Position numbers and translations under genes: made by a program. The notes beneath the pieces were generated by a model. That model saw only the letters and a list, made by a program, of their open reading frames with translations. It searched no databases and was not told where the DNA came from. A stretch of 64,000 bases of DNA. Source: Myroides fluvii (GTDB taxonomy: Bacteria; Bacteroidota; Bacteroidia; Flavobacteriales; Flavobacteriaceae). The stretch is taken from the NCBI RefSeq assembly GCF_009792295.1, contig NZ_CP039934.1, forward strand, positions 1,818,501-1,882,500. Reading direction: 5' to 3'. This document shows positions 28,577 to 46,397 of the stretch, piece by piece. How positions within the stretch are numbered: position 1 is the stretch's first letter; every line of letters starts with the position of its first letter.

Positions 28577-29314
28577 ATGAAAAAGTTGTGGAAGAAAATA
28601 AAATGGTCAGACTTGCGCATTTTGATGATGCTAGGAGCCTTATTGTTTTTGTATTCTTTTAGCAATGACCGAAGTACACATCGTAATTTAAAAGGAGTAG
28701 ATATTATTTTTAAAGGAGAAGAGACGCATTTTGTAACCTCTAGTGATGTAAAAAAAATTGTTGCAGATAAAAGTGGAAATATTACAGCTCAGGATCGATC
28801 AACAGTAGATTTAAGTACTTTAGAAAAAGGAGTATTAGAGAATAAACTGATTAGAGAAGCAGAGGTGTATGTGACCATTGACGGTGTTTTAAAAGTTGAA
28901 GTCAATCAAAAAAAGGCGATCGGGCGTGTAGTAGGAGAAGCAGAATCCTATTATTTAGATGAAGACGGCCATCGAATGCCGTTGTCAGAGAACTACGCAG
29001 AGCGCGTAATTTTGGTTGAAGGAACGATTAAAAAGGAAACACAAAATGAATTAAAACACATGTTGGACGTGATTAATGCCGATGCGTTTTTAAAACAAGA
29101 AATCACCGGAATTAGCATTCAGCCCAATGAGGTGATTTATCTGAAAAGTCGAGTGAATACATTTGAAATTCTATTTGGAAGTTTTAACGAAATAGAGCGA
29201 AAATTGATGAACTATAAAGCTTTTATGCAATATGCAATCAATGAGAATATAGAAATAGATAGTTATAAAAAGATCAATCTGAAATTTACCCAACAAGTGG
29301 TGTGTTCAAAATAA
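28577..29314 (+). CDS. ftsQ: cell division protein FtsQ
   Basis: 245 residues with a basic N-terminus, a single transmembrane helix (about residues 15-32) and a periplasmic POTRA-like region opening with LKGVDIIFKGEETHFVTSSDV. The topology and its place between murC and ftsA identify FtsQ, although sequence conservation is weak. Its end overlaps no start; ftsA begins nine bases later. Confidence 0.87.
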   Translation: MKKLWKKIKWSDLRILMMLGALLFLYSFSNDRSTHRNLKGVDIIFKGEETHFVTSSDVKKIVADKSGNITAQDRSTVDLSTLEKGVLENKLIREAEVYVTIDGVLKVEVNQKKAIGRVVGEAESYYLDEDGHRMPLSENYAERVILVEGTIKKETQNELKHMLDVINADAFLKQEITGISIQPNEVIYLKSRVNTFEILFGSFNEIERKLMNYKAFMQYAINENIEIDSYKKINLKFTQQVVCSK

Positions 29315-29322
29315 AATTGAGT

Positions 29323-30762
29323 ATGGAAAAAGAAAATATAGCTGTTGGTTTAGACATTGGGACAACAAAGATTGTCGCAATGATTGGTAAAAAGAATGAA
29401 TACGGAAAGCTCGAAATCTTAGGTTTGGGAAAAGCAAAGAGTTTGGGTGTGAAAAGAGGAGTGGTGAACAATATTACACAAACGATTCAATCCATTCAAC
29501 ATGCGGTAGCAGATGCAGAAACTCAAGCGGGTTACAAGATTAAAAATGTTGTTGTGGGTATTGCTGGTCAACATATCAGAAGTATTCAACACAGTGATTA
29601 TATTAGTCGTCCAAACCCTGATGAGGTAATTGGAGATAAGGATATCGAACAATTGATCAATCAGGTGCAGAAATTGAGTATGTTGCCAGGAGAGGAGATT
29701 ATTCACGTTTTGCCACAAGAGTTTAAAATTGATGGAGAACCGGGAATTAAAGAACCGGTTGGAATGTATGGTAGTCGTTTAGAGGCAACCTTTCACGTGG
29801 TAGTAGGACAAGCAGCTTTGATTAAAAACGCAGGGCGTTGTATTAAAGATGCAGGACTTGAACTAGCGGGAATTACCTTAGAGCCTTTAGCATCAGCAGA
29901 GGCAGTACTGAGTCAAGAAGAAAAAGAAGCCGGTGTGGCTTTAATCGATATAGGAGGTGGTACGACGGATTTGGCCATTTTTAAAGATGGAATTATCCGC
30001 CATACGGCAGTGGTTCCTTTCGGAGGAAATGTGATTACAGAAGATATCAAAGAAGGATGTTCGATTATTGAACGTCAAGCAGAAATTCTAAAAGTAAAAT
30101 TTGGTTCGGCATGGCCAGGGGAAAACAAAGACAATGAAATTGTTTCTATCCCAGGTTTACGAGGAAAAGAGCCTAAAGAAATTTCTTTAAAAAATCTTTC
30201 TAAGATTATAAATGCTCGTGTGGAAGAAATTGTGCAATTGGTTTTTTCAGAAATTAAAAGTTATGGATATGAAAATCCACAGAAAAAACTAATCGCCGGC
30301 ATTGTTTTAACAGGAGGAGGATCAGAGCTCAAACACATTAAACAATTGGTCGAATATATTACGGGAATTGATACCCGTATTGGATATCCAAATGAGCATT
30401 TAGCTGGGGATTCAAGTTTAGAAGTTTCTAGTCCATTATATGCAACGGGAGTTGGATTGGTCATGGAAAGCGAAAAACACCGAAAACAAGGTGCTGTTTC
30501 AGTAGAAGAATTAAAAGCTGTTGAAACGAGAACGGAATCAAAACCAGAGGAGAGAAAGGTCGTGTATACTTCTCCTACAGAAGAAGTGGTAAATACACCA
30601 AAAGAGCCTGTTGAGCGCGTGCATCAACCTCGTGTTGAAACGATCTCACAACCTGAGGAAGAAAAAAGAGAAGTGCAGCCAAGTACCGCTGATCGCTTTG
30701 AAAGTAGTTTCATCGGGAACTTTTTTAGAAAAATTAAAGAATTTATTGAAAAGCAAGAATAA
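29323..30762 (+). CDS. ftsA: cell division protein FtsA
   Basis: A 479-residue actin-like ATPase that tethers FtsZ to the membrane. It has phosphate-1 VGLDIGTTK at the N-terminus, the 1C-like SHS2 insert, phosphate-2 LIDIGGGTTDLAIF near residue 206, and the adenosine motif IVLTGGGSELK near residue 327. After about residue 385 a long charged linker ends in the amphipathic helix IGNFFRKIKEFIEKQE, the membrane-targeting sequence. The ATG at 29323 is preferred to an upstream GTG at 29302 because MEKENIAVGLDIG is family-typical. Confidence 0.95.
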   Translation: MEKENIAVGLDIGTTKIVAMIGKKNEYGKLEILGLGKAKSLGVKRGVVNNITQTIQSIQHAVADAETQAGYKIKNVVVGIAGQHIRSIQHSDYISRPNPDEVIGDKDIEQLINQVQKLSMLPGEEIIHVLPQEFKIDGEPGIKEPVGMYGSRLEATFHVVVGQAALIKNAGRCIKDAGLELAGITLEPLASAEAVLSQEEKEAGVALIDIGGGTTDLAIFKDGIIRHTAVVPFGGNVITEDIKEGCSIIERQAEILKVKFGSAWPGENKDNEIVSIPGLRGKEPKEISLKNLSKIINARVEEIVQLVFSEIKSYGYENPQKKLIAGIVLTGGGSELKHIKQLVEYITGIDTRIGYPNEHLAGDSSLEVSSPLYATGVGLVMESEKHRKQGAVSVEELKAVETRTESKPEERKVVYTSPTEEVVNTPKEPVERVHQPRVETISQPEEEKREVQPSTADRFESSFIGNFFRKIKEFIEKQE

Positions 30763-30777
30763 TAAAACGATACGTAT

Positions 30778-32826
30778 ATGGAGAATACAGATTTCGGAGG
30801 AATAAAGTTTGATATGCCTAAGAACCAATCAAACGTTATCAAGGTAATTGGTGTAGGTGGCGGAGGAAGTAACGCAATCAATCACATGTTTAAGCAGGGT
30901 ATTAAGGGAGTGGATTTCATCGTTTGTAATACGGATTCCCAAGCCTTAGAAAATAGCTCAGTTCCTAATAAAATTCAGTTGGGTGTTAATTTAACTGAAG
31001 GGTTAGGTGCGGGTGCAAATCCTGAAGTAGGACAACAATCTGCTTTAGAAAGTATAGAAGAAATTGAGAAAATGCTAGATACCAATACCAAGATGGTGTT
31101 CATCACCGCAGGTATGGGTGGAGGTACAGGAACAGGTGCTGCTCCTGTCATCGCACAACTATCAAAAGAAAGAGATATCTTAACGGTTGGTATCGTGACA
31201 ATTCCTTTCCAATTCGAAGGAAAAGTACGTCAAGAACAAGCGTTAAAAGGGGTTGATCGATTGAGAAAACAAGTGGATTCTCTCATCGTAATCAACAACA
31301 ATAAATTACGTGAAGTATATGGAAACTTAGGCTTTAAGGCAGGCTTCTCCAAAGCAGATGAGGTATTGTCAACTGCTGCCCGTGGTATCGCCGAAGTTAT
31401 TACGCACCATTATACGCAGAATATTGACTTGAAAGATGCGAAAACAGTATTGTCTGATAGCGGTACAGCTATTATGGGATCTGGTACTGCATCTGGAGAC
31501 AATAGAGCAAAAGATGCCATTATTGATGCGTTAGATTCTCCATTGCTGAATGACAATAAAATATCAGGTGCTAAAAACGTATTGTTGTTAATCGTTTCAG
31601 GTACAAATGAAATTACAATTGATGAAATTGGCGAGATCAATGATCACATCCAAACCGAAGCTGGACATAATGCAAATATCATTATGGGAGTTGGTGAAGA
31701 TGAATCATTAGGAGAGGCTATTTCTGTTACTATTATTGCTACGGGATTTAACTACGAGCAACAAAAAAGTATTGTAAATTCTGCTGAACCTCGAGTTATT
31801 ATTCACACTTTAGAAGAGGAACAAAAAGTAGTGCGCGATTTAACGCAAACTGCATCCGTATCTTCTTATGGATTTACGACTCCTGATCAACCTTTGCGCG
31901 TTTCTACTCCAGAAACAACCGAAGGGGCTGTAGAAAAAGAAGAAGTAAACTGCGAAGTAGAAACGAGAAAAGTATTCACCTTAGAGGATGATTACGAAGA
32001 AGGTGACGATGATGATGATTTCGGCGGACCAACAACACCCACACAACCATTAGGGGAAGTGGATGAGGTAGTATTCGAAAGAAAATCAATGGATGCATCG
32101 AATTTGGATGTATTCTTCGAAATCGTAACGCCTAAAACAGAGGAAAGAACGCAAGATCACCACCAAAATGATCCGATGGCATCGAAGCAAAAAGACATCA
32201 GAGATATTCAGGTAATTGATCCGGAGTTTGTCATCGTTACGCCTAAGAAACAAGAGGTAGCTGCACCTATTGTCTATCATTTTGATGAAGAATTAGCTGA
32301 AATGGAAGTGACTGCAGCTGAAGTAGTAGGTCATGCAAGTGAAGCAATGAATCAATCTTCAGCCAAAAAAGAAGAAGTAATTCGCTTTTCTTTGGAAGAC
32401 TATATGGATAAAGAAGAAGAATTAGCTTTAGCTAAACCTATAGTAAATCACAAAGAAGAAATTGCAGAAGAATTTAAATTCTCTGTGCGTGCGGAAGGTA
32501 TGCCCGTTGTAAATAAAGTAGAAGTAGAAGCTTCAACAGAAGATTATGACGAAATGAATCCTACAGAAATGAGCATTGAAGAATTCACGTTGAGAAGTAG
32601 AGCAGCAGAGCGTAGAAGAAAAATGAAAGACTTCAATTACAAATTCAACAACTCAACAGCTCATTATTCGGATTTGGAAAAAGAGCCAGCGTATAAGCGC
32701 TTAGGAGTTGATTTAGAAGATGTAAATGACGAAAGCAATAAATCTAGAATCTCCTTTGGTGTGGACGGAAATAACGACCCTAAATTGAGATCGAATAATT
32801 CGTTTTTACACGATAATGTAGACTAA
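30778..32826 (+). CDS. ftsZ: cell division protein FtsZ, with long C-terminal extension
   Basis: A 682-residue tubulin homologue that forms the division ring. The GTPase core (about residues 15-330) has IGVGGGGSNA, the signature GMGGGTGTGAAP near residue 112, and the NNNKL segment. A highly acidic, probably disordered region follows (DDYEEGDDDDDFGG), then a basic EFTLRSRAAERRRKMKDFNYKF segment near residue 600. Flavobacterial FtsZ proteins are generally long, near 650 residues. It closes the cluster and is followed by a terminator. Confidence 0.96.
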   Translation: MENTDFGGIKFDMPKNQSNVIKVIGVGGGGSNAINHMFKQGIKGVDFIVCNTDSQALENSSVPNKIQLGVNLTEGLGAGANPEVGQQSALESIEEIEKMLDTNTKMVFITAGMGGGTGTGAAPVIAQLSKERDILTVGIVTIPFQFEGKVRQEQALKGVDRLRKQVDSLIVINNNKLREVYGNLGFKAGFSKADEVLSTAARGIAEVITHHYTQNIDLKDAKTVLSDSGTAIMGSGTASGDNRAKDAIIDALDSPLLNDNKISGAKNVLLLIVSGTNEITIDEIGEINDHIQTEAGHNANIIMGVGEDESLGEAISVTIIATGFNYEQQKSIVNSAEPRVIIHTLEEEQKVVRDLTQTASVSSYGFTTPDQPLRVSTPETTEGAVEKEEVNCEVETRKVFTLEDDYEEGDDDDDFGGPTTPTQPLGEVDEVVFERKSMDASNLDVFFEIVTPKTEERTQDHHQNDPMASKQKDIRDIQVIDPEFVIVTPKKQEVAAPIVYHFDEELAEMEVTAAEVVGHASEAMNQSSAKKEEVIRFSLEDYMDKEEELALAKPIVNHKEEIAEEFKFSVRAEGMPVVNKVEVEASTEDYDEMNPTEMSIEEFTLRSRAAERRRKMKDFNYKFNNSTAHYSDLEKEPAYKRLGVDLEDVNDESNKSRISFGVDGNNDPKLRSNNSFLHDNVD

Positions 32827-33128: not shown

Positions 33129-33847
33129 GTGACGATGAAAAAAATATACCCACTTTTTCTTTTAGTATGGATTTCTTGTATCTCGTGTTCTCAGCTTAGT
33201 CCAACCCTTGTGAAATCTAAATATACAGCTGATGAGATTCTTCGGAAGTTAGAATTTACTCAACTTTATACAGTACATGATAGTACGCCTGTTACCTTTG
33301 GTGAGAAAATAGTGAATAGTGCGGTTAATAAAGAAAAATTTATCGATACCCCCTGGGAAGGAGCTATAACAGGTAGAGAGTTTGTTATTGTGGAATATAC
33401 AGATCCCAAACAAAAGACTGAATGGGGCTATTTGTACCAAGTCTACCTTTGGAAGGATCGCTTCTTGCTTTTTTTGTTAATCGAGGAGATGGAATGGGGC
33501 AGAACTTGAGTTATAATGGTCAATCACAACCGTATTATCGCGTGAATTATTCCAGGGATGTCCATTTGTTTAAATACCCAACTTTAGTGAAACCCAATCA
33601 AATTTTGTGTCTGATGTATCTCAAAAAGGAAATTGTCGTAAACAAGGATAAGGTGAATGTTGTATCCTATGATTTTAAAGCAGATGAGAGTAAAGGTGTC
33701 GAATTGATCGCTCAAACAGAAGAACCCTATAAAGGAAGTATTCGAATCACCTATACAATTAAAGTAGTCGCTGATGATGCTTGGATTGTTGTCAATCAAA
33801 TGAAAGAAAGTTATCGCTTCAATTGTAATATAATCGAAGGAGGATGA
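33129..33847 (+). pseudogene. secreted lipoprotein gene split by a frameshift
   Basis: The first frame (33129-33509) opens with a signal peptide and lipobox CISCS and runs into WKDRFLLF. A second frame (open from 33422 to 33847) carries FFVNRGDGMGQNLSY onward to the stop. One extra T in the seven-T run at 33469-33475 would join them into a protein of about 239 residues. Either this copy lost a T, the ribosome slips by -1, or the sequence is wrong by one base. No family is recognised. It is convergent with the usher-like gene. Confidence 0.6.
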
Positions 33848-33885: not shown

Positions 33886-36615
33886 TTAGAAACTGATAGC
33901 TTTAAATTTCTTGACTTGTACGTCTTTCGATTTGACTTGAATGTTGAAGTCAATGACTTGATTATTTGTCGTTGTAGTATTAACCTTAATGGTATTTTGG
34001 AGTACTTCTACTTGATTGGGTTGATCGGGATATACAGTTACTGTATAATCTCCTTTGGGTAAATAAAGCGAATATCGCCCTTCATCAGAGGTATAAGCGG
34101 TATAACTCTCACCTATATTATTTTGGGCAACCACGCGTTGACCTGCTAAGTTTTTATTTAATGTTACAGCATGTTCTGCGTATTCATAGTGGATCGATCC
34201 CGTTATGGTTGTTGTTTGCGTGAGGTAAATCACTTGAGATAAATTGGAATCTAAACTCAATTTTAAGGCATTCATAAACCAATGTTGATCATTTTGAACT
34301 TGAACGGTATAGGTACCTGCAGGTAACTTCTTGTAGTCAATGCTTCCATCGACATTGGTAATAAAAGCCTTTTGATTGATCGTTACCACGCGGTTACTTG
34401 CGGGTAATATATTTTGATTTTCATCCTGATAATAGACCAGTACGTTTAGGTTGTATAATTTTTCGTAGGCCTTATAAGGCGTTAATTGTTTAACGAGACC
34501 TACTTGAAAATAATTCGTTTGATTGGCAGCGGAAAATCCGCCATAATTGTTGTAATTACTGACATAAATATCAAAATCCTTTTTGAGTTTGTACTCTACA
34601 CGTGTATTGAATTGCCAAAAATCGCCACTTGTAGAGGTGTTATTGTAATACCCGCTTAACACAATACCTAATTGATTATTGAAAAAACGCTGTCTGTAGT
34701 TCCCCATAATCATGAGGTTGGTATAGGTGTGAATCACCTGCCAATCGTAATACGAAGCATTAATCAACTCACTTAAATTATTGTAGTTGTATTGATAACT
34801 CACACCTAGATCAAAATTCTTGTAATTTGCCCCTACATTGAGGCGATAGTGTAATCTTTCTTGAATTTCTGTTTGGGTGATATAATTACCCAAATCGATA
34901 GACGCATTGTACCCAAAGCCTTTAGCAAAATTACTTTGATGATAGGCCGCATGGAAACGAACCGCTTGGAGCTTTTCCATGGTCGCTGTTTGATAATTGA
35001 ATCGCTTCTCTTGTACATACTGCGGACTTACAAGTAGGGTACTCGAAGCCATGCGATAAGAATAACTCATCCCTAAGGCGTTGGATTGCTGTTGAGCATT
35101 AACGGAATTGGTGTAACTGTATTTCGGCGCATAATCGATAAAATGCTGAATTAGTCCTACACTGTGCTTACCCATATTCCTTCTAATGGTTGTTGCAGCC
35201 TGAGAAACCCCCTGGCGGACACCCGCATAATAGGGGCTGCTGTAGAAGCTGTTGTGTTGAATTTGATACTTCGTTAGGGTGGCATAAGCATTAAGTCCTA
35301 GAAATACGCCCAATTGACTCGTTTCATCTGTCTGAAGCACAGATCCTCCTTGGTTGAAATCAACTTGTAAGATTGGCTTGTTCCACAGCGCAAAAGAATT
35401 GTATTGCAATATTTTTTTCTCTCCATAGCGATGGTTGACATCATAGTAAAACTGAGCGTGTTTCCAGGCGTGTTTTTGCGATTGGAAACCCACCCAGGTA
35501 TTATATCCCACTGAGCGATCATTGGAGTCGCTAATTAAATATGTTTTGTCTAGATAGCCCGCTTGAATATAAAGGGAATCCTGAAGTTTAATTTGCGTTT
35601 GAACTCCGCGACCTTGCAAGGAAAATTCCCCCGATTGAAAAAGGTTACCTGCTTGTACTTGTATGTTTTTCGTTTGAAAATCCGCTAAAAAATGACGGAG
35701 ATTTACTTTGTTTTCTTTGTCCCAATGGATGAGATCCGCAGTTAAACCCAATTGACTGTGTTCCGAAAATTGTACGGTTCCACTTCCGATAAGTTGAGTG
35801 GCTGCCATTACATTTTTACCCATCACGCGATTGAGTTCAATCGAACTGCTGGGATTGTAAGAAGAGGCATACTGATTTTCGGCTCTATATCTTCGCTTGG
35901 ATTTTAGGGAACTTATACTATAGAGGGTACGGCCAATAAAATCGCCATTTTCATAGAGTAAGGTGGTACTAATATCAAAATCCTCTAATTTATAAGCCTC
36001 TTTGTTGATGTATTGTAGAAGAGTAACCAAGGTATCTTGGAAGGGGCGTATTGTAAAATTCAACGCCTCAGTACGCGTCTTGTTTAACTGGTTGGGTAAA
36101 GTAACAATATAGTGCACCTTTTCAGTTGTATTTCCTCTATTTTGAATAATCGCCTTGATGAGAATACTATCGCCAACTTGTCTAAATTGCAATTGACTGT
36201 CTGGATTAGTCAATAAAATTCTTCTGTTTTTCTGAATTAAAATAGGATGTTCTACCCAAGGAATGGCAGGGCCATGCAGTGGAATTAACTGCGCCTTTAT
36301 CGCTAGATCATTCGTTAGTGAACTACTTTGATCTACGTGTGCCAGGATGGGAATATACATCTTTTGTCCGGCAGGTAAACGCAAGGCTTTTGTCTTTGCA
36401 CTAGAAAGGGTAATAAAGGAGGAGTTCCCCTCAAGTTGCACATTTCCTACCCATTCCGATTGACCCAAGTTGGATATTTCGAGCGAAGGAGATACATGAC
36501 CTAATTCATCTGCCTGGGAGGCGACTGTAGTAAATTTTAAAAAAATAGAAGTTCCTTGCCCCCAACTAAAGGTGCAGAGAAAAAGGAAAAAAAAGACAAA
36601 ATACTTTTTAATCAT
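33886..36615 (-). CDS. usher-like outer-membrane barrel protein
   Basis: 909 residues. A signal peptide ends at WGQ (about 20). Two Ig-like domains follow (about 25-130 and 140-230). Residues 235-705 consist of many short alternating strands rich in Tyr, Gln and Asn, as in an outer-membrane barrel. Two Ig/SdrB-like domains end the protein (about 708-800 with DGSIDYKKLPAGTYTVQV, and 805-905 with SDEGRYSLYLPKGDYTVTV). This resembles a fimbrial usher: periplasmic N-domain, barrel, two C-terminal beta domains. I cannot confirm homology to FimD or CsuD. It is last in an operon with a chaperone and pilin-like genes; its ATG overlaps the preceding TAA. Confidence 0.6.
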   Translation of the reverse strand: MIKKYFVFFFLFLCTFSWGQGTSIFLKFTTVASQADELGHVSPSLEISNLGQSEWVGNVQLEGNSSFITLSSAKTKALRLPAGQKMYIPILAHVDQSSSLTNDLAIKAQLIPLHGPAIPWVEHPILIQKNRRILLTNPDSQLQFRQVGDSILIKAIIQNRGNTTEKVHYIVTLPNQLNKTRTEALNFTIRPFQDTLVTLLQYINKEAYKLEDFDISTTLLYENGDFIGRTLYSISSLKSKRRYRAENQYASSYNPSSSIELNRVMGKNVMAATQLIGSGTVQFSEHSQLGLTADLIHWDKENKVNLRHFLADFQTKNIQVQAGNLFQSGEFSLQGRGVQTQIKLQDSLYIQAGYLDKTYLISDSNDRSVGYNTWVGFQSQKHAWKHAQFYYDVNHRYGEKKILQYNSFALWNKPILQVDFNQGGSVLQTDETSQLGVFLGLNAYATLTKYQIQHNSFYSSPYYAGVRQGVSQAATTIRRNMGKHSVGLIQHFIDYAPKYSYTNSVNAQQQSNALGMSYSYRMASSTLLVSPQYVQEKRFNYQTATMEKLQAVRFHAAYHQSNFAKGFGYNASIDLGNYITQTEIQERLHYRLNVGANYKNFDLGVSYQYNYNNLSELINASYYDWQVIHTYTNLMIMGNYRQRFFNNQLGIVLSGYYNNTSTSGDFWQFNTRVEYKLKKDFDIYVSNYNNYGGFSAANQTNYFQVGLVKQLTPYKAYEKLYNLNVLVYYQDENQNILPASNRVVTINQKAFITNVDGSIDYKKLPAGTYTVQVQNDQHWFMNALKLSLDSNLSQVIYLTQTTTITGSIHYEYAEHAVTLNKNLAGQRVVAQNNIGESYTAYTSDEGRYSLYLPKGDYTVTVYPDQPNQVEVLQNTIKVNTTTTNNQVIDFNIQVKSKDVQVKKFKAISF

Positions 36616-37640
36616 TAATTCGGGACAATTATAAAGTAAAGATAGGTTTCATATCTTCCATTGGCTTGTTGAAGTTCGCGGGTATTGGGTGGAATACTAA
36701 GTTCCAAGTTGTATGACATGGATTGACTCCATCCAGGAAAGGAAGCAAGCGCTTGCTCTTGTGCGGATAGGGCTATTGGACCAAATAAGGTGACAGCAGC
36801 AGCATTACCACCTTCAATGCGGTTTAAGGTTGCTTTTAACTTTAATACCGAAACGGGAATACTATTCGTTAATGTTGTGTTGTATAGCAAGTGATCTGCG
36901 GTTTTTACTAAAATTTGGTGGCCTTGATAACTTCGAATATACAGCGCATTATTGATGGTAATCTTTTTTCCTTTGGCGATGTCCTCTGGCGAATCAAAAT
37001 TAAAAATAAATTCATTGGCTCCATTGCGCAATTCTGCGAGTTGATCCCCGTGATTTCCCACGTAGTTGATTTGAAATCGCGCAACACCTGGAGCAGAAGT
37101 TTTACGTGCCAGCAAGACATCTCTTCCCGAAGACGTATCATAGAGCGAAAATTCGTAGGTACTGCGGTAAATACCATTGGGAATAGTCAATACCTCTACT
37201 CCTCCTCGAATGGTTAAATCAAAAGATAAGGTGTAATAATTGCCTTCCGGTAGTGCGGTAGTGCTCTCTACAATGGTGCTTTCTTGAAACTTGCTCAACG
37301 GTAAATTTCGACCGATACTGCTAAAAGCCAATTGATTGAAATTTCCACTTTGTCTATTGAGACTAATGGCGGAATTCTCCGCAGGAACACTGTGATTTTC
37401 TGCTCGATAATCATCGAGTAAACGCACGGTAATTTTCCATTTGGCAGGTGCTTTAATGCCGTAGTTTCTTCTGAATTGTACGGAGATTTGTCGTTCTTCG
37501 CTCTTCCCAAATTTTAAATCATTGTAGGAATTTAATTGAAGCTGTCCGCCGTCATATACATTTAGGTCGTATTGGGCATACAACCCTTGACTTCCCAGTA
37601 AGAAAGCAAAAAGCAATACTATTTTATGTGTTAAACTCAT
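36615..37640 (-). CDS. two-domain pilin-like protein, putative tip adhesin
   Basis: 341 residues, secreted (signal ends at YAQ, about residue 23). The N-terminal domain runs to about 165 and ends in strand-like NGIYRSTYEFSLYD. The second domain (about 185-341) shares the internal DSPEDIAKGK motif and the ending GRYETYLYFIIVPN with the three small pilin-like proteins of the operon. Two beta domains, one pilin-like, is the layout of tip adhesins such as CsuE or FimH. It overlaps the chaperone gene by four bases and the usher-like gene by one, so all three are translationally coupled. Ligand unknown. Confidence 0.6.
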   Translation of the reverse strand: MSLTHKIVLLFAFLLGSQGLYAQYDLNVYDGGQLQLNSYNDLKFGKSEERQISVQFRRNYGIKAPAKWKITVRLLDDYRAENHSVPAENSAISLNRQSGNFNQLAFSSIGRNLPLSKFQESTIVESTTALPEGNYYTLSFDLTIRGGVEVLTIPNGIYRSTYEFSLYDTSSGRDVLLARKTSAPGVARFQINYVGNHGDQLAELRNGANEFIFNFDSPEDIAKGKKITINNALYIRSYQGHQILVKTADHLLYNTTLTNSIPVSVLKLKATLNRIEGGNAAAVTLFGPIALSAQEQALASFPGWSQSMSYNLELSIPPNTRELQQANGRYETYLYFIIVPN

Positions 37641-38428
37641 AAGGTAAAATCAAGCTCGGCTACTTTCACATTGTTTTCCTTGCCGTAGGTTAACTGAACA
37701 ATAAAGGTATGAGTTCCCGATGGTAAGTCTTGAGGTAAAACAAAAGACTGTTTTCTACTATCAAGGGGTAAACTGTAAAAATCAAGGGTACTAAGTGTGT
37801 GTTTAACCCCTGTTTGTTGATCAAAAATGGTGGCTGTGATTTTACCATCACTCCACAAAAGACCTGTATTTTCAAATGAAACATCAATAGCACGTTGTCC
37901 ATCGGCTGTTTTGTTTGGCTCTATATTGACAATGTCTACTGATTCTGTGTGATTGGGAAGGGCGTGATACACTTTCAATCCCATGCGAACTGTTACTTTA
38001 ATTGCGGCTCCATTCTCATCTACCGCGTTCCCTGGATTTAATTGAGTGAAAAATAGCATAGCCGTATGTACTGGAACAGCTGTGGCAAGTGTTGTAGGAA
38101 CATTTAAAATAACGTCCACTTCTTTTATTTCATTTGGTTCAATGACAAAATAAGAATTGGGCAATACCTGAATCCAATTTGCTGCTGAATTAGGTAAGGT
38201 ATTCATCTCTGCAATGTGATTACTTCCTTTTTCATCATAGTTCCAATCGCCCAAAGAAACACCCACTTCAACTGCTTTATCGTTGGGATTAGCAATGCGA
38301 ACTTTTTGCGTGGCAACCGTTCCTGCTGTATTTTTAAAATACATCTTTCCAGGTGAAATTGAGAGCCCTGCTTGTGCAAATGAAGCAATTGAACTTAAAA
38401 TAAAAAATAAAAAAAGTGTTTTTCTCAT
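37637..38428 (-). CDS. PapD-like periplasmic pilus chaperone
   Basis: 263 residues with a signal peptide ending at FAQ (about 19). Two beta-sandwich domains are visible. The N-terminal one opens with AGLSISPGKMYFKN and QKVRIANPNDKAVEV, and holds FVIEPNEIKEVDVIL and HTAMLFFTQLNP, matching strands of PapD-type chaperones including the edge strand that donates to subunits. The C-terminal domain (about 155-263) has ISFENTGLLWSDGKITA-like strands. It follows three pilin-like genes and precedes the two-domain and barrel genes. COG1470-like proteins of other function are the main alternative. Confidence 0.65.
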   Translation of the reverse strand: MRKTLFLFFILSSIASFAQAGLSISPGKMYFKNTAGTVATQKVRIANPNDKAVEVGVSLGDWNYDEKGSNHIAEMNTLPNSAANWIQVLPNSYFVIEPNEIKEVDVILNVPTTLATAVPVHTAMLFFTQLNPGNAVDENGAAIKVTVRMGLKVYHALPNHTESVDIVNIEPNKTADGQRAIDVSFENTGLLWSDGKITATIFDQQTGVKHTLSTLDFYSLPLDSRKQSFVLPQDLPSGTHTFIVQLTYGKENNVKVAELDFTL

Positions 38429-38438
38429 TGTAAATAAA

Positions 38439-38972
38439 TTAATTAGGTAATAGTGTGTATACTATTGTGGTTTGATAGGTTCCTGCCTTCTGATTCAGGG
38501 TGTATCCAATATTTTGTGCGGGAATCGCATAATTGACATCCAATTGTTGACTATTTCCTCTGTTATTCGATTGAAGTAAAAGCTGAGGATTTATGGTCAA
38601 ATCAACGGTTCTCAACTGTAGCGGAAAGTCAACTGTAGTTGAAACCGTTAAACTCGGTTTAATTCGGATAATGGAAACAGGTAAAGCAGAAAGCGAGTTT
38701 TCATATTGAAAGAACGCATTAATCGAACGCACGGTCAATTCATAAGGGGTAGAACACTGAATGAATAGATGATTTTTTAATACACCCGTCTCTACTCCTT
38801 TACTATATCCAGCTCCTTTGTTGAGGTTCAAATCAACAGAAGGATGATTCACAACTAAGGATTGCTGCTCTCTAAAGTTCAATACAATTTTGGCCTTTGC
38901 GGAGCCAATTTGTGCCCAAAGCGAAGTAGTCGTCCAAAGTAAGAGAATCGAAAATATTATTTTTTTGTACAC
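38439..38972 (-). CDS. small pilin-like protein 3
   Basis: 177 residues, exported (signal ends at WAQ, about residue 21). It is beta-rich with no Cys in the mature part except one (FIQCSTPYEL). Shared features are NKGAGYSKGVETGVLKNHL, YELTV, VNYAIPAQ, and the ending AGTYQTTIVYTLLPN. Spore-coat-U and archaic pilins end in a similar GTYxDTVTV strand. It probably is a minor subunit or adaptor. It lies nine bases after the second pilin-like gene and ten before the chaperone. Confidence 0.6.
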   Translation of the reverse strand: MYKKIIFSILLLWTTTSLWAQIGSAKAKIVLNFREQQSLVVNHPSVDLNLNKGAGYSKGVETGVLKNHLFIQCSTPYELTVRSINAFFQYENSLSALPVSIIRIKPSLTVSTTVDFPLQLRTVDLTINPQLLLQSNNRGNSQQLDVNYAIPAQNIGYTLNQKAGTYQTTIVYTLLPN

Positions 38973-38980
38973 GTTTTAAA

Positions 38981-39493
38981 TTACAAAGATAAAATAGTAT
39001 AGGTGATAACCGTACTATATGTACCTATAGGTTTATTTAATAATTCGTCTGAGGCATTCATTTTATACGAAACATTAAAGGTTCGTTTGATATCTCCTAC
39101 ATTAGATTGAATCATGTTTTTTTCTCTCAAAGAAAGAGAAATAGGAAGAAGTGAAATATTGTCTCTAAATTCTCCAATGCCTCCTAAACTTGGATTTAAG
39201 CCAATGTTTTCCAATCGAATCTCATCTGAATCATATTGTAGCGGACTGTTGGCAACTACGCGTATTTCGTAAGTTCCACTACTCATAATTTCGATGTGAT
39301 CGGCTTGATTGCTAATTTTGCCTTTCGTATAATCTTCTACGGTTTCAAAAGACAAATTAATATGCTGTTGTTGGTCGTTAATTTTAATCGATTGAATAGG
39401 TTTCAAAACAACGTGTAAGTTACTTTGAACCGAATTTTGAGCCGAAAGGACAAAACTAAATAACAGGAATAAAGGGGCTAAGAATTTTCGCAT
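38981..39493 (-). CDS. small pilin-like protein 2
   Basis: 170 residues with a signal peptide ending at SAQ (about residue 19). It shares with its neighbours the internal FETVEDYTKGK, the following YEIRVVANSPLQ, the VSYKM strand and the ending IGTYSTVITYTILSL. It begins the second part of the operon, after the terminator that follows the first pilin-like gene. No catalytic residues are visible. A role as a minor subunit is inferred from order. Confidence 0.6.
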   Translation of the reverse strand: MRKFLAPLFLLFSFVLSAQNSVQSNLHVVLKPIQSIKINDQQQHINLSFETVEDYTKGKISNQADHIEIMSSGTYEIRVVANSPLQYDSDEIRLENIGLNPSLGGIGEFRDNISLLPISLSLREKNMIQSNVGDIKRTFNVSYKMNASDELLNKPIGTYSTVITYTILSL

Positions 39494-39642
39494 TTCATCA
39501 AATTATCTAGGTTAAATTTACCACTAAAAAATGAATAATTTAAGTAAATTCTGACCTTTTTAGCGGGTTTGTACGTAAATAGAAGCTTAACTTCTCAACA
39601 AAATTCACTATAAAAAATAACGCCCTTCTAACTAGAGTAGAA

Positions 39643-39686
39643 GCAAAAAAAAATCTACTGTCGCGCCACAAACGCAACAGTAGATA
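39643..39686 (-). terminator. terminator inside the pilin operon
   Basis: On the minus strand ATCTACTGTTGCG pairs with CGCGACAGTAGAT (one internal mismatch) and is followed by nine U residues. It lies directly after the first pilin-like gene. Partial read-through would give far more of that subunit than of the downstream genes. Confidence 0.85.
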
Positions 39687-39710
39687 AAAAGGTTGTATAT
39701 TTTTTTTGGA

Positions 39711-40271
39711 TTATAATGCGTATAAATTGTAAGTTACTGTAGTTGTATACGTTCCTTCTTTTTTATCTGTATAAGCAGAAGTTTGACTTGCTGGAATAGC
39801 ATACTCAACTGCATATCCCATTTTAGCTGTTCCTGCCGATGTTGTTACTAATGGAGAACTCTCTGTCGTTGCTAATTGTGCAGTATTGTGAGAAGCTGTA
39901 AAGTTGCTTGGTCCTGCTCCTTCTGCTAAGTTTGTGTTTCCTTTGATTCTCACTTCTACAGTATTCACTGGAATGGTAACTCCACTGTTGTTTAAGTCGC
40001 TACTCGCCACTACTTTGATTTCATATTTTTGGGTAGCTGTTACCTCTAAGTGGTTTTTTAATTCACCTGATGTACTACCTTTTTGGAATTGCTCCACGGT
40101 ATTCATTGGAATAGTTACTGACGCATTGGTTACGTTTAACTCGTATACGTCTGACAAATTAACGTTTAGGTTAGTAGTTCCTGAACTTTTTTTGTTGCCC
40201 TCTTGAGCAAATGATGTTACACTGATGAAAGATAAAGCGGCTACTAATGCTAATTTGAATGTTGTTTTCAT
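39711..40271 (-). CDS. putative major pilin-like subunit
   Basis: 186 residues. A clear signal peptide ends at SFAQ (about 23). The mature protein is Thr, Ser, Asn and Val rich without Cys: NLNVNLSDVYELNV, PMNTVEQFQKGS, YEIKVVASSDLNN, MGYAVEYAIPAS, and the end GTYTTTVTYNLYAL. This is a small all-beta subunit. First place in the operon, its own promoter box and a strong terminator right behind it fit a highly expressed major subunit. It matches no FimA/Mfa1 type V pilin features, such as a lipobox with an Arg cleavage site. Confidence 0.6.
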   Translation of the reverse strand: MKTTFKLALVAALSFISVTSFAQEGNKKSSGTTNLNVNLSDVYELNVTNASVTIPMNTVEQFQKGSTSGELKNHLEVTATQKYEIKVVASSDLNNSGVTIPVNTVEVRIKGNTNLAEGAGPSNFTASHNTAQLATTESSPLVTTSAGTAKMGYAVEYAIPASQTSAYTDKKEGTYTTTVTYNLYAL

Positions 40272-40568: not shown

Positions 40569-41420
40569 TTACAAGTTATCTCTGTATTCTTTCGGACTTA
40601 ATCCTGTCGCTTTCATGAAAAAGCGAGTGAAATTGCTCGTATCTTCAAAATTTAATTCATAAGCAATTTCCTTGATAGTCAAAGGGGTGTGTTTTAATAA
40701 TAGCTTAACTTCATTAACTACCGCACTCGCAATGATCTTTTTAGGGGTGGTTCCATAAATGTCCTTGCTAATTTCATTGAGCTTTGATACTGAGATACTC
40801 ATGTGATCCGCATAAAATTGTACGTTGCGTTCGTTTCGAATATTTGTTTTAATCAGCTCATTAAACTTGATGACATTTTTAAGTTGAGATGGGGATAGCT
40901 TTTCTTTATTAAACTCTACATACGTATTAATATGACAAGCCATAATGAAAAGGAGGACACGTTCAATGATGTTATGAGCGGTCATGTAATTTAAATTGCT
41001 ATACGTTTTGTTTTGTAATTTTAATAGCGAAATAAAATAGTATTGCGCAAACGTCACTTGTTCTGATTTAAGCGTAATGGAATTGATTGCTTTGGTGTTG
41101 TCAAAAAATACACATTTGTCTAAAAAGTGACGATCTACCGCTGTGCGACAATAAAAGGTGTCCGTAAACTGAACATAACTGAGGGAATAGCTCTCGTCAG
41201 CAGTTAAGCGAAATAATTCGTTTTTACCCAGAAATAAACAGTCGCCTTCTGTCAATTCCTTTTTGTTGGTAGACATGATCACGGAAACTTTTCCCTTTTG
41301 CAACCAGAGCAGTTGATACACGTCGTTGTGCTGTTGAAAAAGATGATCATTTTCAGTCAGATAAGTGGCTGTGCCAGCATCAAATCCATAAATGGATTTT
41401 AGTTCAATAGTAGATAACAT
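40569..41420 (-). CDS. AraC-family transcriptional regulator
   Basis: 283 residues. The C-terminal 100 residues form two helix-turn-helix units typical of AraC/XylS proteins (YGTTPKKIIAS, LTIKEIAYELNFEDTSNFTRFFMKATGLSPKEYR). The N-terminal half has cupin-like strands (LWLQKGKVSVIM, GDCLFLGKNELFRL) that may bind a small ligand. It lies immediately upstream of the pilin operon on the same strand, separated by its own terminator, so it is the natural candidate to control the operon. Confidence 0.88.
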   Translation of the reverse strand: MLSTIELKSIYGFDAGTATYLTENDHLFQQHNDVYQLLWLQKGKVSVIMSTNKKELTEGDCLFLGKNELFRLTADESYSLSYVQFTDTFYCRTAVDRHFLDKCVFFDNTKAINSITLKSEQVTFAQYYFISLLKLQNKTYSNLNYMTAHNIIERVLLFIMACHINTYVEFNKEKLSPSQLKNVIKFNELIKTNIRNERNVQFYADHMSISVSKLNEISKDIYGTTPKKIIASAVVNEVKLLLKHTPLTIKEIAYELNFEDTSNFTRFFMKATGLSPKEYRDNL

Positions 41421-41696
41421 TAGATGAAGGGGTAAATAGTGTTTTCTAAAAATTTTTATTAACTGTAAAAATAAAATTTTCTCTGTAATATGCTAGATTA
41501 TGACTCTATTTTAACATTTTACGGAGGCTAAAAAAAGAGGATAATTCCCTTTTTTGGATTTATTTAGAGGAGCAAAAGGCGGTTGCGTCGTAAAATAGAA
41601 GGGAATTATTTGAATTTCCAATTAAATTAGGGATGAATAGTTGAGGATAGTAAAAAGTAAAAATGGGGAATTTGTCTTGTTTTCTCACCTTTTTTA
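41421..41696. other. intergenic region between the AraC-type gene and yqeY
   Basis: AT-rich and non-coding as far as I can see. It must contain the AraC-type gene promoter on the minus strand and the upstream part of the yqeY promoter. A TTG-initiated extension of the yqeY frame to 41641 is rejected because it runs through the promoter. Confidence 0.5.
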
Positions 41697-41704
41697 TATC
41701 TTTG
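41697..41704 (+). promoter_or_regulatory. yqeY promoter -7 box
   Basis: TATCTTTG, with a TTTG 22 bases upstream at 41671-41674. The start codon lies 21 bases downstream. Confidence 0.7.
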
Positions 41705-41724
41705 CAAAACCAAATAAAAAAGAA

Positions 41725-42177
41725 ATGAGTTTACAAGCAAATATTATGGATGCGATGAAAAGCGCCATGAAATCAAAAGATAGTATCGCTTTAGAAGCAC
41801 TTAGAGCAGTTAAGGCAGAATTGTTATTAGCGCAAACTCAATCAGGTTCTAAAGAAGAAATTAGCGAAGTGGAAGAGATTAAGATTTTACAAAAATTAGT
41901 AAAACAACGCAAAGACAGTGCAACTATTTTTGCTGAACAAGGAAGAGCGGATTTAGTAGAACCTGAATTAGCACAAGTAGCTGTTATCGAACAATTTTTA
42001 CCAGCACAATTGTCTAACGAAGAAGTAGAAGCCATTATTGCTAAAATTATTGCGGATGGAAATCACGCAGGTATGGCTGCTATGGGACAGGTAATGGGAA
42101 TGGCATCGAAAGAATTAGCAGGAAAAGCTGATGGAAAAACGATTTCAACAATAGTAAAAACACTATTGACAAAATAA
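41725..42177 (+). CDS. yqeY: GatB/YqeY domain-containing protein
   Basis: A 150-residue cytoplasmic protein of the YqeY family, related to the tRNA-binding tail of GatB. It opens with SLQANIMDAMKSAMKSKDSIALEALRAVKAEL and ends with GKADGKTISTIVKTLL, both family-typical. The ATG at 41725 is placed just after the promoter. In flavobacteria this gene usually follows ftsZ; here it is separated from ftsZ by the pilin island. Precise function is unknown. Confidence 0.92.
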   Translation: MSLQANIMDAMKSAMKSKDSIALEALRAVKAELLLAQTQSGSKEEISEVEEIKILQKLVKQRKDSATIFAEQGRADLVEPELAQVAVIEQFLPAQLSNEEVEAIIAKIIADGNHAGMAAMGQVMGMASKELAGKADGKTISTIVKTLLTK

Positions 42178-42357: not shown

Positions 42358-43590
42358 ATGACAGACAAAATCTCAAAAAACCCATATTGTTTCCCAAATT
42401 ATTTACCACAAAATTCTATTGGTAAACATTTGAACAAAATCTCATTTAAAATCTTTATTAAAAAAGATTATACACGTTCAGATGGAACAAATGCACTCTA
42501 TATTCAATTGATTTTAGATAGACAAATCAAACGAATTCCTCTTAATATTTACATTTCTCTCTTAGACTTCGATGAAAAGAAACAACGTGTAAAGAAGCGT
42601 AACAAAGGATATGCAGATTTCAATTTACTCATCGAAAAGACCTTAGCAGATCTGAATGAAATAGAAGTGGCCTATCGACTTTCTAAACGTCCCTTGACCA
42701 TGCAGTTGTTGTTGGATGAATTTGAAAATCCTTCTGCATCCATTGACTTTATCAGATTTTATGAAATTGAGCTCGAGAAGGAAAAGCTCGTTTTGGCGAA
42801 TTCAAGCTATGTCCAACAGCGATCTGTTGTTCGCAAGCTGAAACGATACCAGGAACGAATCCTATTCCATGAAATTACAGCTGAATTCATTGATCAGGTG
42901 ATTTACTATTTCAAAACCAAGGAGAAGAATTCACATAATACGATATCGACCTTAACGAAGAATCTCAAGAAGTATTTAGCTCGAGCCAATAAAGCAGGAA
43001 TATGGACTCCTATTTACCATACCGAAGTACCCCATCGTCAGATGAGAGGAACGATCAATTTTTTGACTGGAGAGGAAATTAATAGTATCTATCAATATTA
43101 CAAGTCCCCATTCATTCAAGAACCGCACAAAGTGGCGAGTGCGAAATTCCTATTTAGCTGCTTTACTGGATTGCGTATTAGCGATATTAACGAGCTTAAT
43201 CAGAATAAGATTGTAAATAATGAAACCTTGCTTACATTTCAAGCCGTAAAAACCAAGCAAATCCAACAAATCAAGCTCAACAATATTGCAAAGGAGTTGG
43301 TTCTAGATGGCTTTATATTTGCTCCTTTATCGAAAGAGAAGCTTCGTAAAAGAGTACAAGAGATTGCAGTAATTGTAGGAATTAAAAAACACGTCAACTA
43401 TCATATGTCACGACATTCGTTCGCAACGAACTTTTTAGTGCAAGGTGGTCGAGTAGAAGTGTTACAAAGATTATTGGGACATACCTCTTTAGAAATGACC
43501 ATGAAATACGTGCATGTGGTCCAGGATGTCATGAATGATCAAATTATGTTTTTAGATAATATCATTGCGAAAGAAAAGCCTGCAGAATAG
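42358..43590 (+). CDS. int: tyrosine recombinase, phage integrase
   Basis: A 410-residue site-specific recombinase. An N-terminal arm-type domain (about residues 25-105) and a SAM-like core-binding domain (about 110-220) precede the catalytic domain. Catalytic residues are Arg273 (FTGLR), His349 and Arg352 (YHMSRH), His375 (LLGHTS) and nucleophile Tyr384 (MKYVHV). All are intact, so it should be active. It runs towards the phage genes, next to its tRNA target. Confidence 0.93.
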   Translation: MTDKISKNPYCFPNYLPQNSIGKHLNKISFKIFIKKDYTRSDGTNALYIQLILDRQIKRIPLNIYISLLDFDEKKQRVKKRNKGYADFNLLIEKTLADLNEIEVAYRLSKRPLTMQLLLDEFENPSASIDFIRFYEIELEKEKLVLANSSYVQQRSVVRKLKRYQERILFHEITAEFIDQVIYYFKTKEKNSHNTISTLTKNLKKYLARANKAGIWTPIYHTEVPHRQMRGTINFLTGEEINSIYQYYKSPFIQEPHKVASAKFLFSCFTGLRISDINELNQNKIVNNETLLTFQAVKTKQIQQIKLNNIAKELVLDGFIFAPLSKEKLRKRVQEIAVIVGIKKHVNYHMSRHSFATNFLVQGGRVEVLQRLLGHTSLEMTMKYVHVVQDVMNDQIMFLDNIIAKEKPAE

Positions 43591-43600
43591 CAGGCTTTTA
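43574..43600. terminator. bidirectional terminator between integrase and phage tail operon
   Basis: AAAAGCCTGC, loop AGAATA, and GCAGGCTTTT form a 10-bp stem overlapping the integrase stop codon. It lies between convergent genes. Confidence 0.85.
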
Positions 43601-45427
43601 TATGGGCATCAAATCTAGTTTGATCGTTATCAAGGATGAAATTGAAGATTCCTTACTAAGGGATTCGACATAATAAGGAAGTTTATTTACTAACACCCTT
43701 TTTTTAGTCTCGATTTCATGTAAAACCAACTGAGTGACATTCAGTTCTATATTCAAGCGATTGGATTGAAGGTATTTAGGAGCTGTTTTTTTGTAATAGC
43801 GTTCAAAAATGGCTTCTGTGGTTATTGTTGTGTTTTCTATACTGGTAGTTAAGTCATCTGAGGCACCATTAATAAGAACCAAGCCAACGCCTGATTTACT
43901 TTCTTCTTCCTTGGTTAATGGTGTTTTAGTTTGTTTGAATTTACTTTCAAATACTTTTTCTTTTTCATCTGTAATTTCTAGAGGACTCTCAAATTCTGAA
44001 TAGGTATGTGTTGGATCAATGTCATTGTCAAATTTAAACTTGAGTTGAACGACTTCATGTTTTGGATAACCATCTATATAGACGCTTCCCAAATCAACAT
44101 AATCTACCTCGCTTAATAATTCATCCAGGTAGATCACTTCTAACTTGGTTCCATTGTTGGACTCGATGAATTGAATATTGAATAGAATCCGCAATTGATT
44201 CAAGTATTCTGCAAAAGTCCAATCGGGGAGATATCTCCCGATTTCTATAGTTGGATGGAACATAAATCCACTCGTATGTAATAGTGTTTCAACATACAAA
44301 TCCTCGAAATCACTTTCAAAGATATCACGCCTATTTCGACTTCGAAAATAAATAGCTACAGGATAGCTTGCATCTTCTGGCTGTATTTCAAAATTAAATT
44401 CCCCTTCAAATAAAGATTCTTCCCCTCTAAAATTTCTATGCTCGATCGATTTATTCCATCTTCTATTTCCTACAGCTATAGATAGAATATCGTCGTAGGT
44501 TTTGAATTTATATTTGAATACATATTTACCAGGATCTTGCTTATCCAGTTGAAACCTCTTTTGCCAAGGTGTTGATCCAGGAAAGCCATCTAAATATTCC
44601 CAAGCACTGCTTGCATAATAGATGTTTTCTTTTTCCTGCGTACTATAAATTTCAGTCAAATTAGTTTCCTTGGTCAAGAATGCTAAACTGCTGGCAAATT
44701 TATCTTGTAATAAGTTCGCTGGAAACGACAACCCTAATCGAGCACATTTCAGTAAAAGTGGTGTTAACAGATATACACACCAGGTGGGTACATTTCTCGA
44801 ATCGATTACAATTCCTTCAGCTGTGTTATTCTCTGTATTTAATACATATTTCCCTTCCAATACAGTATTATAACCACCGGCATAATTATACCAAGTATCT
44901 CCTTCTTTTGGTTCTCCAAATTGCGTTGGAAAAGAAATAAAAGGCGCCTTCCATAATTGAGAAGGAAAAGCTCCTTCTTCCGTTGTTTTTACATAATTAG
45001 CATAAGCTATAGGATTAGGGGGAATTCCATCATATTTTTCTGTGAAAGGTCGTGGAGGAAATTCGTTTATAACAGAAATAGAAGTTCCCATTTCTCTAAT
45101 CTTCGATGAACCCGCATTGTATAATTTACTCGCAAAGCGAACATTAGCTTTTCGATATCCTTTTTGACACTCTAAGATTTGCAATTCACCTTGAGTAATC
45201 GTATTAAATGTGCGAACCTCAATCGTAAAATATTGAGGTGTGTGGAGAATTACATTGTTCTTTCCAAAAGCGGTTTCGGTTTTTTCATTTTCGATGATTA
45301 AAAAAGGGTACTCACTAGCTGTAAATTTGAGCGAATCTGGAAAGATGGACTGGTCTGTTTTTAAAGCTAAACTTTCTAAAATATAATCAATCTCAACGCC
45401 GTTATGGTAAATGCTAATTAGCTTCAT
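43598..45427 (-). CDS. phage tail tip or baseplate hub-like protein
   Basis: A 609-residue, mostly beta protein, last in the tail operon. It starts MKLISIYHNGVEIDY, typical of distal tail or hub proteins, and contains a central region with LPDWTFAEYLNQLRILFNIQF near residue 395. Its place after tape measure and another tail protein is that of a tail-tip hub. No hydrolase motif is seen. The assignment to tail tip is inferred from order; I do not recognise the family. It overlaps the previous gene by 14 bases. Confidence 0.6.
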   Translation of the reverse strand: MKLISIYHNGVEIDYILESLALKTDQSIFPDSLKFTASEYPFLIIENEKTETAFGKNNVILHTPQYFTIEVRTFNTITQGELQILECQKGYRKANVRFASKLYNAGSSKIREMGTSISVINEFPPRPFTEKYDGIPPNPIAYANYVKTTEEGAFPSQLWKAPFISFPTQFGEPKEGDTWYNYAGGYNTVLEGKYVLNTENNTAEGIVIDSRNVPTWCVYLLTPLLLKCARLGLSFPANLLQDKFASSLAFLTKETNLTEIYSTQEKENIYYASSAWEYLDGFPGSTPWQKRFQLDKQDPGKYVFKYKFKTYDDILSIAVGNRRWNKSIEHRNFRGEESLFEGEFNFEIQPEDASYPVAIYFRSRNRRDIFESDFEDLYVETLLHTSGFMFHPTIEIGRYLPDWTFAEYLNQLRILFNIQFIESNNGTKLEVIYLDELLSEVDYVDLGSVYIDGYPKHEVVQLKFKFDNDIDPTHTYSEFESPLEITDEKEKVFESKFKQTKTPLTKEEESKSGVGLVLINGASDDLTTSIENTTITTEAIFERYYKKTAPKYLQSNRLNIELNVTQLVLHEIETKKRVLVNKLPYYVESLSKESSISSLITIKLDLMPI

Positions 45428-46397
45428 AATTGATGTATTGGAAGGTTAATTGTGTTGCAGTAACCCACTTATTGGATTCCCATTTTGGAACCTTTTTTTG
45501 AGTCGGCACTACTTGGGTATATGAACCATTAATTTCAATCTCTACCTGAAGGGAATTGAGAATCTGAGAAATCACAAATATCTCTGAATTGAGTAAATAG
45601 CCTGTATTCACAGTAAGATTCGATGAAGAGTTGATTTCGTTGGTCAATAATCGTCCGTTCTGATCGCGAATAGTAGCGTAATTTAGTTCTTCTTCCATTT
45701 TCATAGAAGCGAACAATTGGGTATGAAGTATTGCGCCAAATTGATTTTTAAATCGAATGTTAAGTGGTTTAAAACGCTTATTCTTCAACACGCGAATTTG
45801 TTTTTGAATTGTTTGCTTCCCAATTACTTCTAACGTAAGCGCTTCAACTGGATAATCTAACTGAAGTTGTTTCTCAAATAGATAATATCCTTGAGCATTG
45901 TCGAGAAATTGTAAGGCAATCAAATTGTTTTTTTGATCTATTACACGAACTTGGATAGACTGTTTTTCTTGAATCAGAAACGGAACAGATAATATACCAT
46001 GAGAAGCAATAATCAATGCGTCGGAAATACCCAAAAAAGAAATTGGAGCAACAGGAATTTGTTGCATACTCATCGTCGAATAGATTACTTCTATTAGATT
46101 CGTTAATTTAAGATCAATGTATTCTTCCTTATTTTTTTCAGAAATACTGGCCTGATGTCTAAAAATATTATTGATTTTTTTGATGTATTCAGTTATTTGT
46201 ATCGTTCCTATCTGCTTATTTCGATACAAATTGTTGATTCGAATACTCGCTTTATTCAACTCGTATTTAGGGAGTAACAAACGAAGTTCCGAACTATAAA
46301 ATTCGATGGAGTGATTGGCGTTATCTACTTCAACATCATATTGAATAAAATCAGAGTCCAGGACCATTCCTGAAGGTTGGTTGTTTATTGTGATCAT
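45414..46397 (-). CDS. phage distal tail-like protein
   Basis: 327 residues, beta-rich, directly after the tape measure gene, with which it overlaps by four bases (ATGA). Phages with long tails usually encode the distal tail protein here. The sequence itself (MITINNQPSGMVLDSDFIQY) does not show a signature I can name. Other options are a baseplate wedge or adhesin carrier. Confidence 0.5.
   Translation of the reverse strand: MITINNQPSGMVLDSDFIQYDVEVDNANHSIEFYSSELRLLLPKYELNKASIRINNLYRNKQIGTIQITEYIKKINNIFRHQASISEKNKEEYIDLKLTNLIEVIYSTMSMQQIPVAPISFLGISDALIIASHGILSVPFLIQEKQSIQVRVIDQKNNLIALQFLDNAQGYYLFEKQLQLDYPVEALTLEVIGKQTIQKQIRVLKNKRFKPLNIRFKNQFGAILHTQLFASMKMEEELNYATIRDQNGRLLTNEINSSSNLTVNTGYLLNSEIFVISQILNSLQVEIEINGSYTQVVPTQKKVPKWESNKWVTATQLTFQYINYEAN

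Follow-up and report, generated by a model that had tools for sequence, protein, structure and literature searches.

Can a member of the Bacteroidota build pili by the chaperone-usher (CU) pathway? The question is raised by six minus-strand genes at positions 33886–40271 of a 64,000-nucleotide stretch of Myroides fluvii DNA (contig NZ_CP039934.1; "the window" hereafter), drawn from a genome of 3.77 Mb in a single contig. A sequence-only reading had taken them for a Csu-like CU locus encoding three small exported proteins, a PapD-like chaperone, a two-domain pilin-like protein and a 909-residue barrel protein. The introduction of PMC4654587 assigns archaic CU systems to Proteobacteria, Cyanobacteria and Deinococcus-Thermus, and both remaining kinds to beta- and gamma-Proteobacteria; a survey table in PMC4827864 has fimbrial ushers under Proteobacteria, Spirochaetae, Cyanobacteria and Deinococcus/Thermus but none under Bacteroidetes. 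No description of a CU system in Bacteroidota was found among the literature matches listed (titles and the beginnings of abstracts, most subscription papers falling outside this scope), nor in the available parts of PMC4793230, PMC8551831 and PMC3796261, the first of which is a survey that excluded the CU pathway. Our analysis indicates that the locus very probably encodes an adhesive pilus of CU type, belonging to a branch that is distributed across the Bacteroidota; the six genes are real, and a CU pilus system is the likeliest reading of them. If this is true, the CU pathway would also occur in a phylum thought to rely on other pili, and it would have been overlooked there because the family models miss its proteins. 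Against the Pfam families that the sequence-only reading had named for comparison, none of the six window proteins gave a match (Usher, PapD or SCPU, E ≤ 1), and no fitting NCBIfam model was found either.

The gene set and its conservation

All six open reading frames (ORFs) lie on the minus strand within the interval, as the sequence-only reading had described. They are pilA, the presumed major pilin (39711–40271, 186 aa), the minor pilins pilB (38981–39493, 170 aa) and pilC (38439–38972, 177 aa, GTG start), the PapD-like periplasmic chaperone with two Ig domains (37637–38428, 263 aa), the two-domain tip protein (36615–37640, 341 aa) and the usher-like outer-membrane protein (33886–36615, 909 aa). 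The intergenic gap after pilA is 217 bases and the next two are 8 and 10 bases; the tip and usher genes overlap by 1 base, and the chaperone and tip genes by 4 bases, an overlap that recurs in 22 of 39 relatives.

These 39 relative loci were collected by scanning species genomes with the chaperone family. They come from records named Myroides, Paenimyroides, Flavobacterium, Mesonia, Arenibacter and Cellulophaga, and further from records named Pedobacter, Daejeonella, Arcticibacter, Mucilaginibacter, Sediminibacterium, Taibaiella and Sphingobacteriales. In every one of the 39, the genes for the chaperone, the tip and the usher-like protein directly follow one another, and pilin relatives (BLAST, E ≤ 0.01) are present in 37, so the six-gene set is not a chance assembly. 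Two further arrangements are seen: pilin, chaperone, usher and two small genes at L023–L025, and pilins, chaperone, usher and a long tip-like gene at L020–L022. Among 395 Bacteroidota genomes drawn, 56 gave a chaperone match (E ≤ 0.001), covering 31 of 170 genera, most of the 56 being far weaker than the matches of the window's group. Strong chaperone matches (E ≤ 1e-39) and usher loci (E ≤ 1e-29, a gene in pieces being taken as one) number 17 each and share the same 12 genomes, with the members of each pair less than 3 kb apart and the two genes oppositely oriented in two of the 17 pairs.

Pilins and tip

The three small exported proteins end in GTYTTTVTY, GTYSTVITY and GTYQTTIVY, each followed by a few residues, and the GTYxTxxxY-type endings reported for them are thus present in all three. 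Their signal peptides finish with A before Q and carry no lipobox cysteine, in agreement with the earlier remark that the lipobox of type V pili is missing here. The best-matching proteins of related loci are 26–98% identical to pilA. The N-terminal extensions were counted over 89 pilins (3 from the window, 86 from the loci); a signal peptide was recognised in 88 of them, and 87 could be fitted to a common core. At least 11 residues stand ahead of the core (median 15). Positions −3, −5 and −7 from the core are hydrophobic in 85, 84 and 85 of the 87, as against 16, 11 and 7 at positions −4, −6 and −8; the 87 are related sequences and do not amount to 87 independent events. In pilA, the alternating hydrophobics (L35, V37 and L39) fall in residues 23–41 (40149–40205, minus strand), the N-terminal extension and predicted donor strand.

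Both halves of the tip protein match the profile of the small proteins, at 99.2% for residues 199–341 and at 95.0% for residues 34–167, which bears out its description as a two-domain pilin-like protein. The second domain was found in all 40 tips; the position of the first could be fixed in 10, in nine of which it starts at an offset of −1 to 4 from the mature N-terminus, and in one at 12. In the window protein, the mature chain opens with the first strand. Where it can be placed, then, the sequence pattern is of a tip that lacks an N-terminal extension and of pilins that have one, as donor-strand exchange would lead one to expect of a tip. A model of a pilC relative (93% identical; confidence 58–91 over the pilin part) suggests that the small proteins are short of one Ig strand: the chain finishes with the strand at 145–156, residues 5–13 are disordered, and so is the stretch that matches the pilA extension. 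The three pilins and the tip did not match SCPU at E ≤ 1, and the pilins gave no sequence match to the E. coli sets. A search for SCPU across 247 genomes returned zero matches, but no positive control responded and the result is uninformative.

The chaperone

The PapD-like character assigned to the chaperone was upheld by its model fold. A fold model was used because the profile value against the E. coli chaperones (85.8%) was found to come mostly from the signal peptide. The model, that of the L046 relative (94% identical), resembles CU chaperones, with two Ig domains and the PapD fold. The window proteins are closest to those of Myroides, the chaperone being 94% identical to that of Myroides sp. 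1354. In each of the two fold searches CfaA ranked as the nearest CU chaperone, and CsuC was also among the structural matches. This piece of the system is not new, since annotation pipelines already call part of the family fimbrial or PapD chaperones ("fimbrial biogenesis chaperone" at NCBI and "P pilus assembly chaperone PapD" at JGI for some relatives).

The G1 region (residues 141–152; 37973–38008, minus strand) was modelled as a strand, with a confidence of 66 at its start and 93 thereafter. Across 43 relatives, positions 143, 145, 147, 149 and 151 (I143, V145, V147, M149 and L151 in the window) are hydrophobic with few exceptions, and positions 144, 146, 148, 150 and 152 are mostly K, T, R, G and K (R148 and K152 in the window). 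By this alternation, G1 is predicted to be the donor strand. K28 and K152 align with R8 and K112 of FimC, and the putative carboxylate anchor is thus of the classical type and not of the archaic one. Pfam PapD_N did not match the window chaperone; at E ≤ 1 it matched 4 of the 43 relatives, the best at 4.7e-4. Sequence searches of the PDB with the chaperone, its profile, and the chaperone and usher of locus L091 gave nothing significant. A profile match between chaperone and pilin (84.6%) was discarded, as it was lost (0.9%) once the signal peptides had been removed.

The usher-like barrel protein

The model of the 909-residue protein contains Ig-like domains at both ends of a barrel, as the sequence-only reading had it. 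Two N-terminal Ig-like repeats (residues 24–242; 35890–36546), which match each other at 92.5%, occupy the place of the usher N-domain. They are followed by a barrel of about 26 predicted strands (residues 258–710; 34486–35844) and by two C-terminal Ig/transthyretin-like domains (residues 716–900; 33916–34470). Members of the Usher family (PF00577 / TC 1.B.11) carry a plug of about 80 residues within the barrel, an N-terminal domain and two C-terminal Ig-like domains. The last of these traits is seen in the model, where two C-terminal Ig-like domains come after a large barrel, and the 12 best PDB matches of the whole model (Foldseek) are all FimD or PapC ushers. Neither an inserted plug nor similarity to the usher N-domain was found, which agrees in part with one of the grounds that the sequence-only reading had counted against itself. 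The longest barrel loop has 22 residues, and by predicted strands no loop of at least 50 occurs in 44 sequences; the profile match of the N-terminal region is below 1% to both usher sets, that of E. coli and that of loci L089–L092 and L099.

At these last five loci, plug-bearing ushers that match FimD over the plug have been retained in the Bacteroidota. The C-terminal domains of the window protein match theirs at 95.2% over 172 columns, mostly through domain 2 (87.2% alone; 9.7% for domain 1 alone), the corresponding value for the E. coli ushers being only 10.5%. A C-terminal domain also matches the widespread CarboxypepD_reg family. The possibility that a chaperone has been fused to the usher as its N-terminal Ig pair was rejected, as no match was obtained (0.9%). 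Names were given to 3 of 17 usher relatives among the matches listed, all "hypothetical protein" at NCBI and one also "Outer membrane protein beta-barrel domain-conta..." in UniRef.

Several observations on other ushers of the phylum were made in passing. The plug-bearing ushers of L099 (7200–10919), L089, L090 and L092 have long C-terminal extensions, with a SPOR match in L099, and the L091 usher has a weak TPR match. Usher-like proteins of about 1300 aa (L096:7310–11332 and L100:6966–10802) carry a C-terminal extension with, by eye, hydrophobic stretches that are perhaps membrane segments. The usher-like protein at L097:2542–5301, with a canonical N-domain and plug by eye, adjoins a distant chaperone relative and gave no strong profile match to the other usher sets. 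Two pilins beside plug-bearing ushers (L091:9275–9778 and L099:5671–6210) gave weak matches to DUF4402 (9.7e-4 and 4.8e-4, below the cut-off); DUF4402 may be a pilin family.

Proposed mechanism

The gene set, its conservation, the modelled folds of the chaperone and the barrel protein and the donor-strand-like patterns are observed, and from them we infer complex formation, exchange, secretion, a pilus and adhesion. The pilins and the tip would enter the periplasm via Sec, where the chaperone would lend its G1 strand to each incomplete pilin while K28 and K152 hold the C-terminal carboxylate of that pilin. The chaperone-pilin complex would dock at the 909-residue outer-membrane protein, whose tandem Ig-like N-domains probably recruit such complexes. 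In donor-strand exchange, the N-terminal extension of the incoming pilin would displace the chaperone strand in the last pilin, and the fibre would exit by way of the barrel with the tip protein in front, since the tip has no extension of its own. Gating of the plug-less usher would be by some other means.

Weighing the alternatives

The case for a CU system draws on the chaperone fold, the donor pattern of the pilins, the two-domain tip, the Foldseek ranking and the conservation of the locus. A number of results weigh against it. No pilus has been observed. The top structural match of the chaperone model is the Gram-positive WxLIP (9i1y, 9i25), and non-CU proteins (Vpr, CEP192, RbmA and axoneme) are interspersed among the CU matches. 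The K28/K152 pair is missing in 14 of 23 wider relatives, and the profile value against the E. coli chaperones dropped to 8.9% without signal peptides. As for the barrel protein, the Foldseek matches to ushers have poor global TM-scores (TMq 0.19–0.27), and VIA ranks TonB receptors equal to or above ushers when the barrel is taken alone (the VIA match lists were filled by the barrel and by the chaperone, and the comparison with solved folds covered chiefly these two). By sequence profile the barrel matches no usher (0.07–1.3%), and homology to ushers was not found in that comparison. Residues 322–356 were considered as a suggestion for plug-flanking usher strands now tightly joined, the plug having been excised there; no peak appeared at the plug site when a deletion of 84 columns was slid along the E. 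coli usher alignment (66 positions) and along that of the L089–L092/L099 ushers (60 positions).

The alternative that survives best, though we regard it as improbable, is an ordinary archaic (Csu-type, sigma) CU system that was transferred to the Bacteroidota and is odd only through divergence. The Csu-like gene content in near-Csu order, the two-domain tip, the short pilin extension and the GTYxT ends would all fit it, as would the presence of CsuC among the structural matches of the chaperone and the loci L020–L022, where the usher stands ahead of the long tip-like gene. Yet the anchors K28 and K152 are of the classical type, and according to PMC4654587 the classical Arg/Lys pair has no counterpart in archaic chaperones. 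SCPU matched none of the window pilins, the usher has neither inserted plug nor N-domain similarity, and relatives in 31 of 170 genera are unlike the outcome of one recent transfer.

Rather less probable is PapD-like chaperoning that serves no fibre, for example a WxLIP-like holder beside an outer-membrane export barrel, the products forming a surface layer or matrix. An extension that is present in the pilins and missing from the two-domain tip makes little sense without head-to-tail assembly, and the top matches of the barrel protein are ushers. We give the least credence to the 909-residue protein being a general outer-membrane barrel with Ig domains and a chance neighbour, the true usher lying elsewhere: the barrel alone is equally near to TonB receptors and ushers and its C-terminal domain matches a widespread family, but in all 39 loci its gene stands beside those of the chaperone and the tip, the barrel protein and the chaperone co-occur in 12 of 12 genomes, and Pfam Usher has no match in the window genome and none above its cut-off in the 395 genomes (four fall below it; the E. 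coli control was positive).

Within the CU reading, the balance tips, by a modest measure, towards an old and separate Bacteroidota branch, in which the usher has no plug or classical N-domain, the tandem Ig N-domains recruit and perhaps gate, and another family keeps the plug; the plug would then be unnecessary for CU secretion.

Surroundings of the locus

A terminator-like hairpin of 15 bp with a T run (39653–39685, minus strand) lies between pilA and pilB. It has the longest stem among 7 terminator-like sites, shuffles averaging 5.8, and in 8 of the 39 relative loci a simple scan detected one of this kind behind a pilin gene. Such a hairpin would be in keeping with production of pilA in excess; the designation of pilA as "major" has as its sole basis this long hairpin behind it and its place as first gene of the set. 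Sigma-70-like sites were no more frequent than expected (27 observed, 27.3 expected). An AraC-type protein upstream of the set (40569–41420, minus strand; HTH_18 match 5e-20), with relatives in 21 of the 39 loci, is a possible regulator of the pilus genes.

The set lies between genes that by eye are ftsA-ftsZ (29302–32826) and a YqeY-like gene (41641–42177). Relatives of both flanks in L046, L048 and L049 indicate a site common to several Myroides. Just past the YqeY-like gene, there are an integrase-like gene and large minus-strand genes that by eye look phage-like (42358–49576). Adjoining the usher gene on the plus strand (33129–33847), a small lipoprotein-like gene is broken into two overlapping ORFs of 126 and 141 aa, where L046–L048 have a single ORF of 232–252 aa.

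Comparison with known systems

The Csu pilus of Acinetobacter baumannii (archaic/sigma) likewise clusters three small pilins, a chaperone, an usher and a two-domain tip, and has a short N-terminal donor segment; CsuC is among the structural matches of our chaperone. The Csu order is pilins, chaperone, usher and tip, whereas the window swaps the last two. The archaic anchor residues of CsuC are Arg89, Tyr196 and Arg174; the window chaperone has, by alignment with FimC, anchors of the classical type. Further differences are the lack of an SCPU match and an usher model that has neither the inserted plug nor the classical N-domain. Of the proposal of a Csu-like locus, the gene content, the order (apart from the swap) and the tip design stand, and the assignment to that family does not. 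We therefore name the locus a CU variant of the Bacteroidota and not a Csu pilus: the general chaperone and pilin features are present, and the plug, the usher N-domain, SCPU and the archaic type of anchor are not.

With the classical systems (FimC/FimD, PapD/PapC, Caf1M), the locus shares the two basic anchors at the same aligned positions, and FimD and PapC lead the fold list of the barrel protein; it differs in phylum, in usher architecture and in having an usher and pilins without sequence match to the E. coli sets. Among the alternative (class 5) systems (CfaA/EcpB), CfaA is the nearest CU chaperone by fold, but the make-up of the locus is different, and the chaperone anchors of that group are of the Arg89 type in the available part of PMC4654587. 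The type V (FimA/Mfa1) pili share the phylum and the general role with our locus, whose pilins have no lipobox and which encodes a chaperone and an usher-like barrel instead; the contrast drawn earlier with these pili was sustained, as P_gingi_FimA (PF06321), the sole type V family searched, had no match in the window genome, a Bacteroides ihuae control being positive. WxLIP of Enterococcus faecium shares the two-domain fold and has the highest score against the chaperone model, but it is of Gram-positive origin and its rmsd of 6.5 Å is above those of the CU chaperones. As an observation in its own right, this best match hints at a link between the WxL system and PapD-like chaperones.

The plug-bearing ushers of L089–L092 and L099, tentatively called Balneola-type, belong to another family of the phylum. 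Their neighbouring chaperone is homologous to that of the window (97.6% without signal peptides) and their C-terminal usher domains match, whereas these ushers match FimD over the plug and their chaperones do not keep the anchors at 28 and 152. A natural plug-less usher would offer a direct test of the purpose of the plug, for which the plug-bearing ushers found within the phylum provide the comparison.

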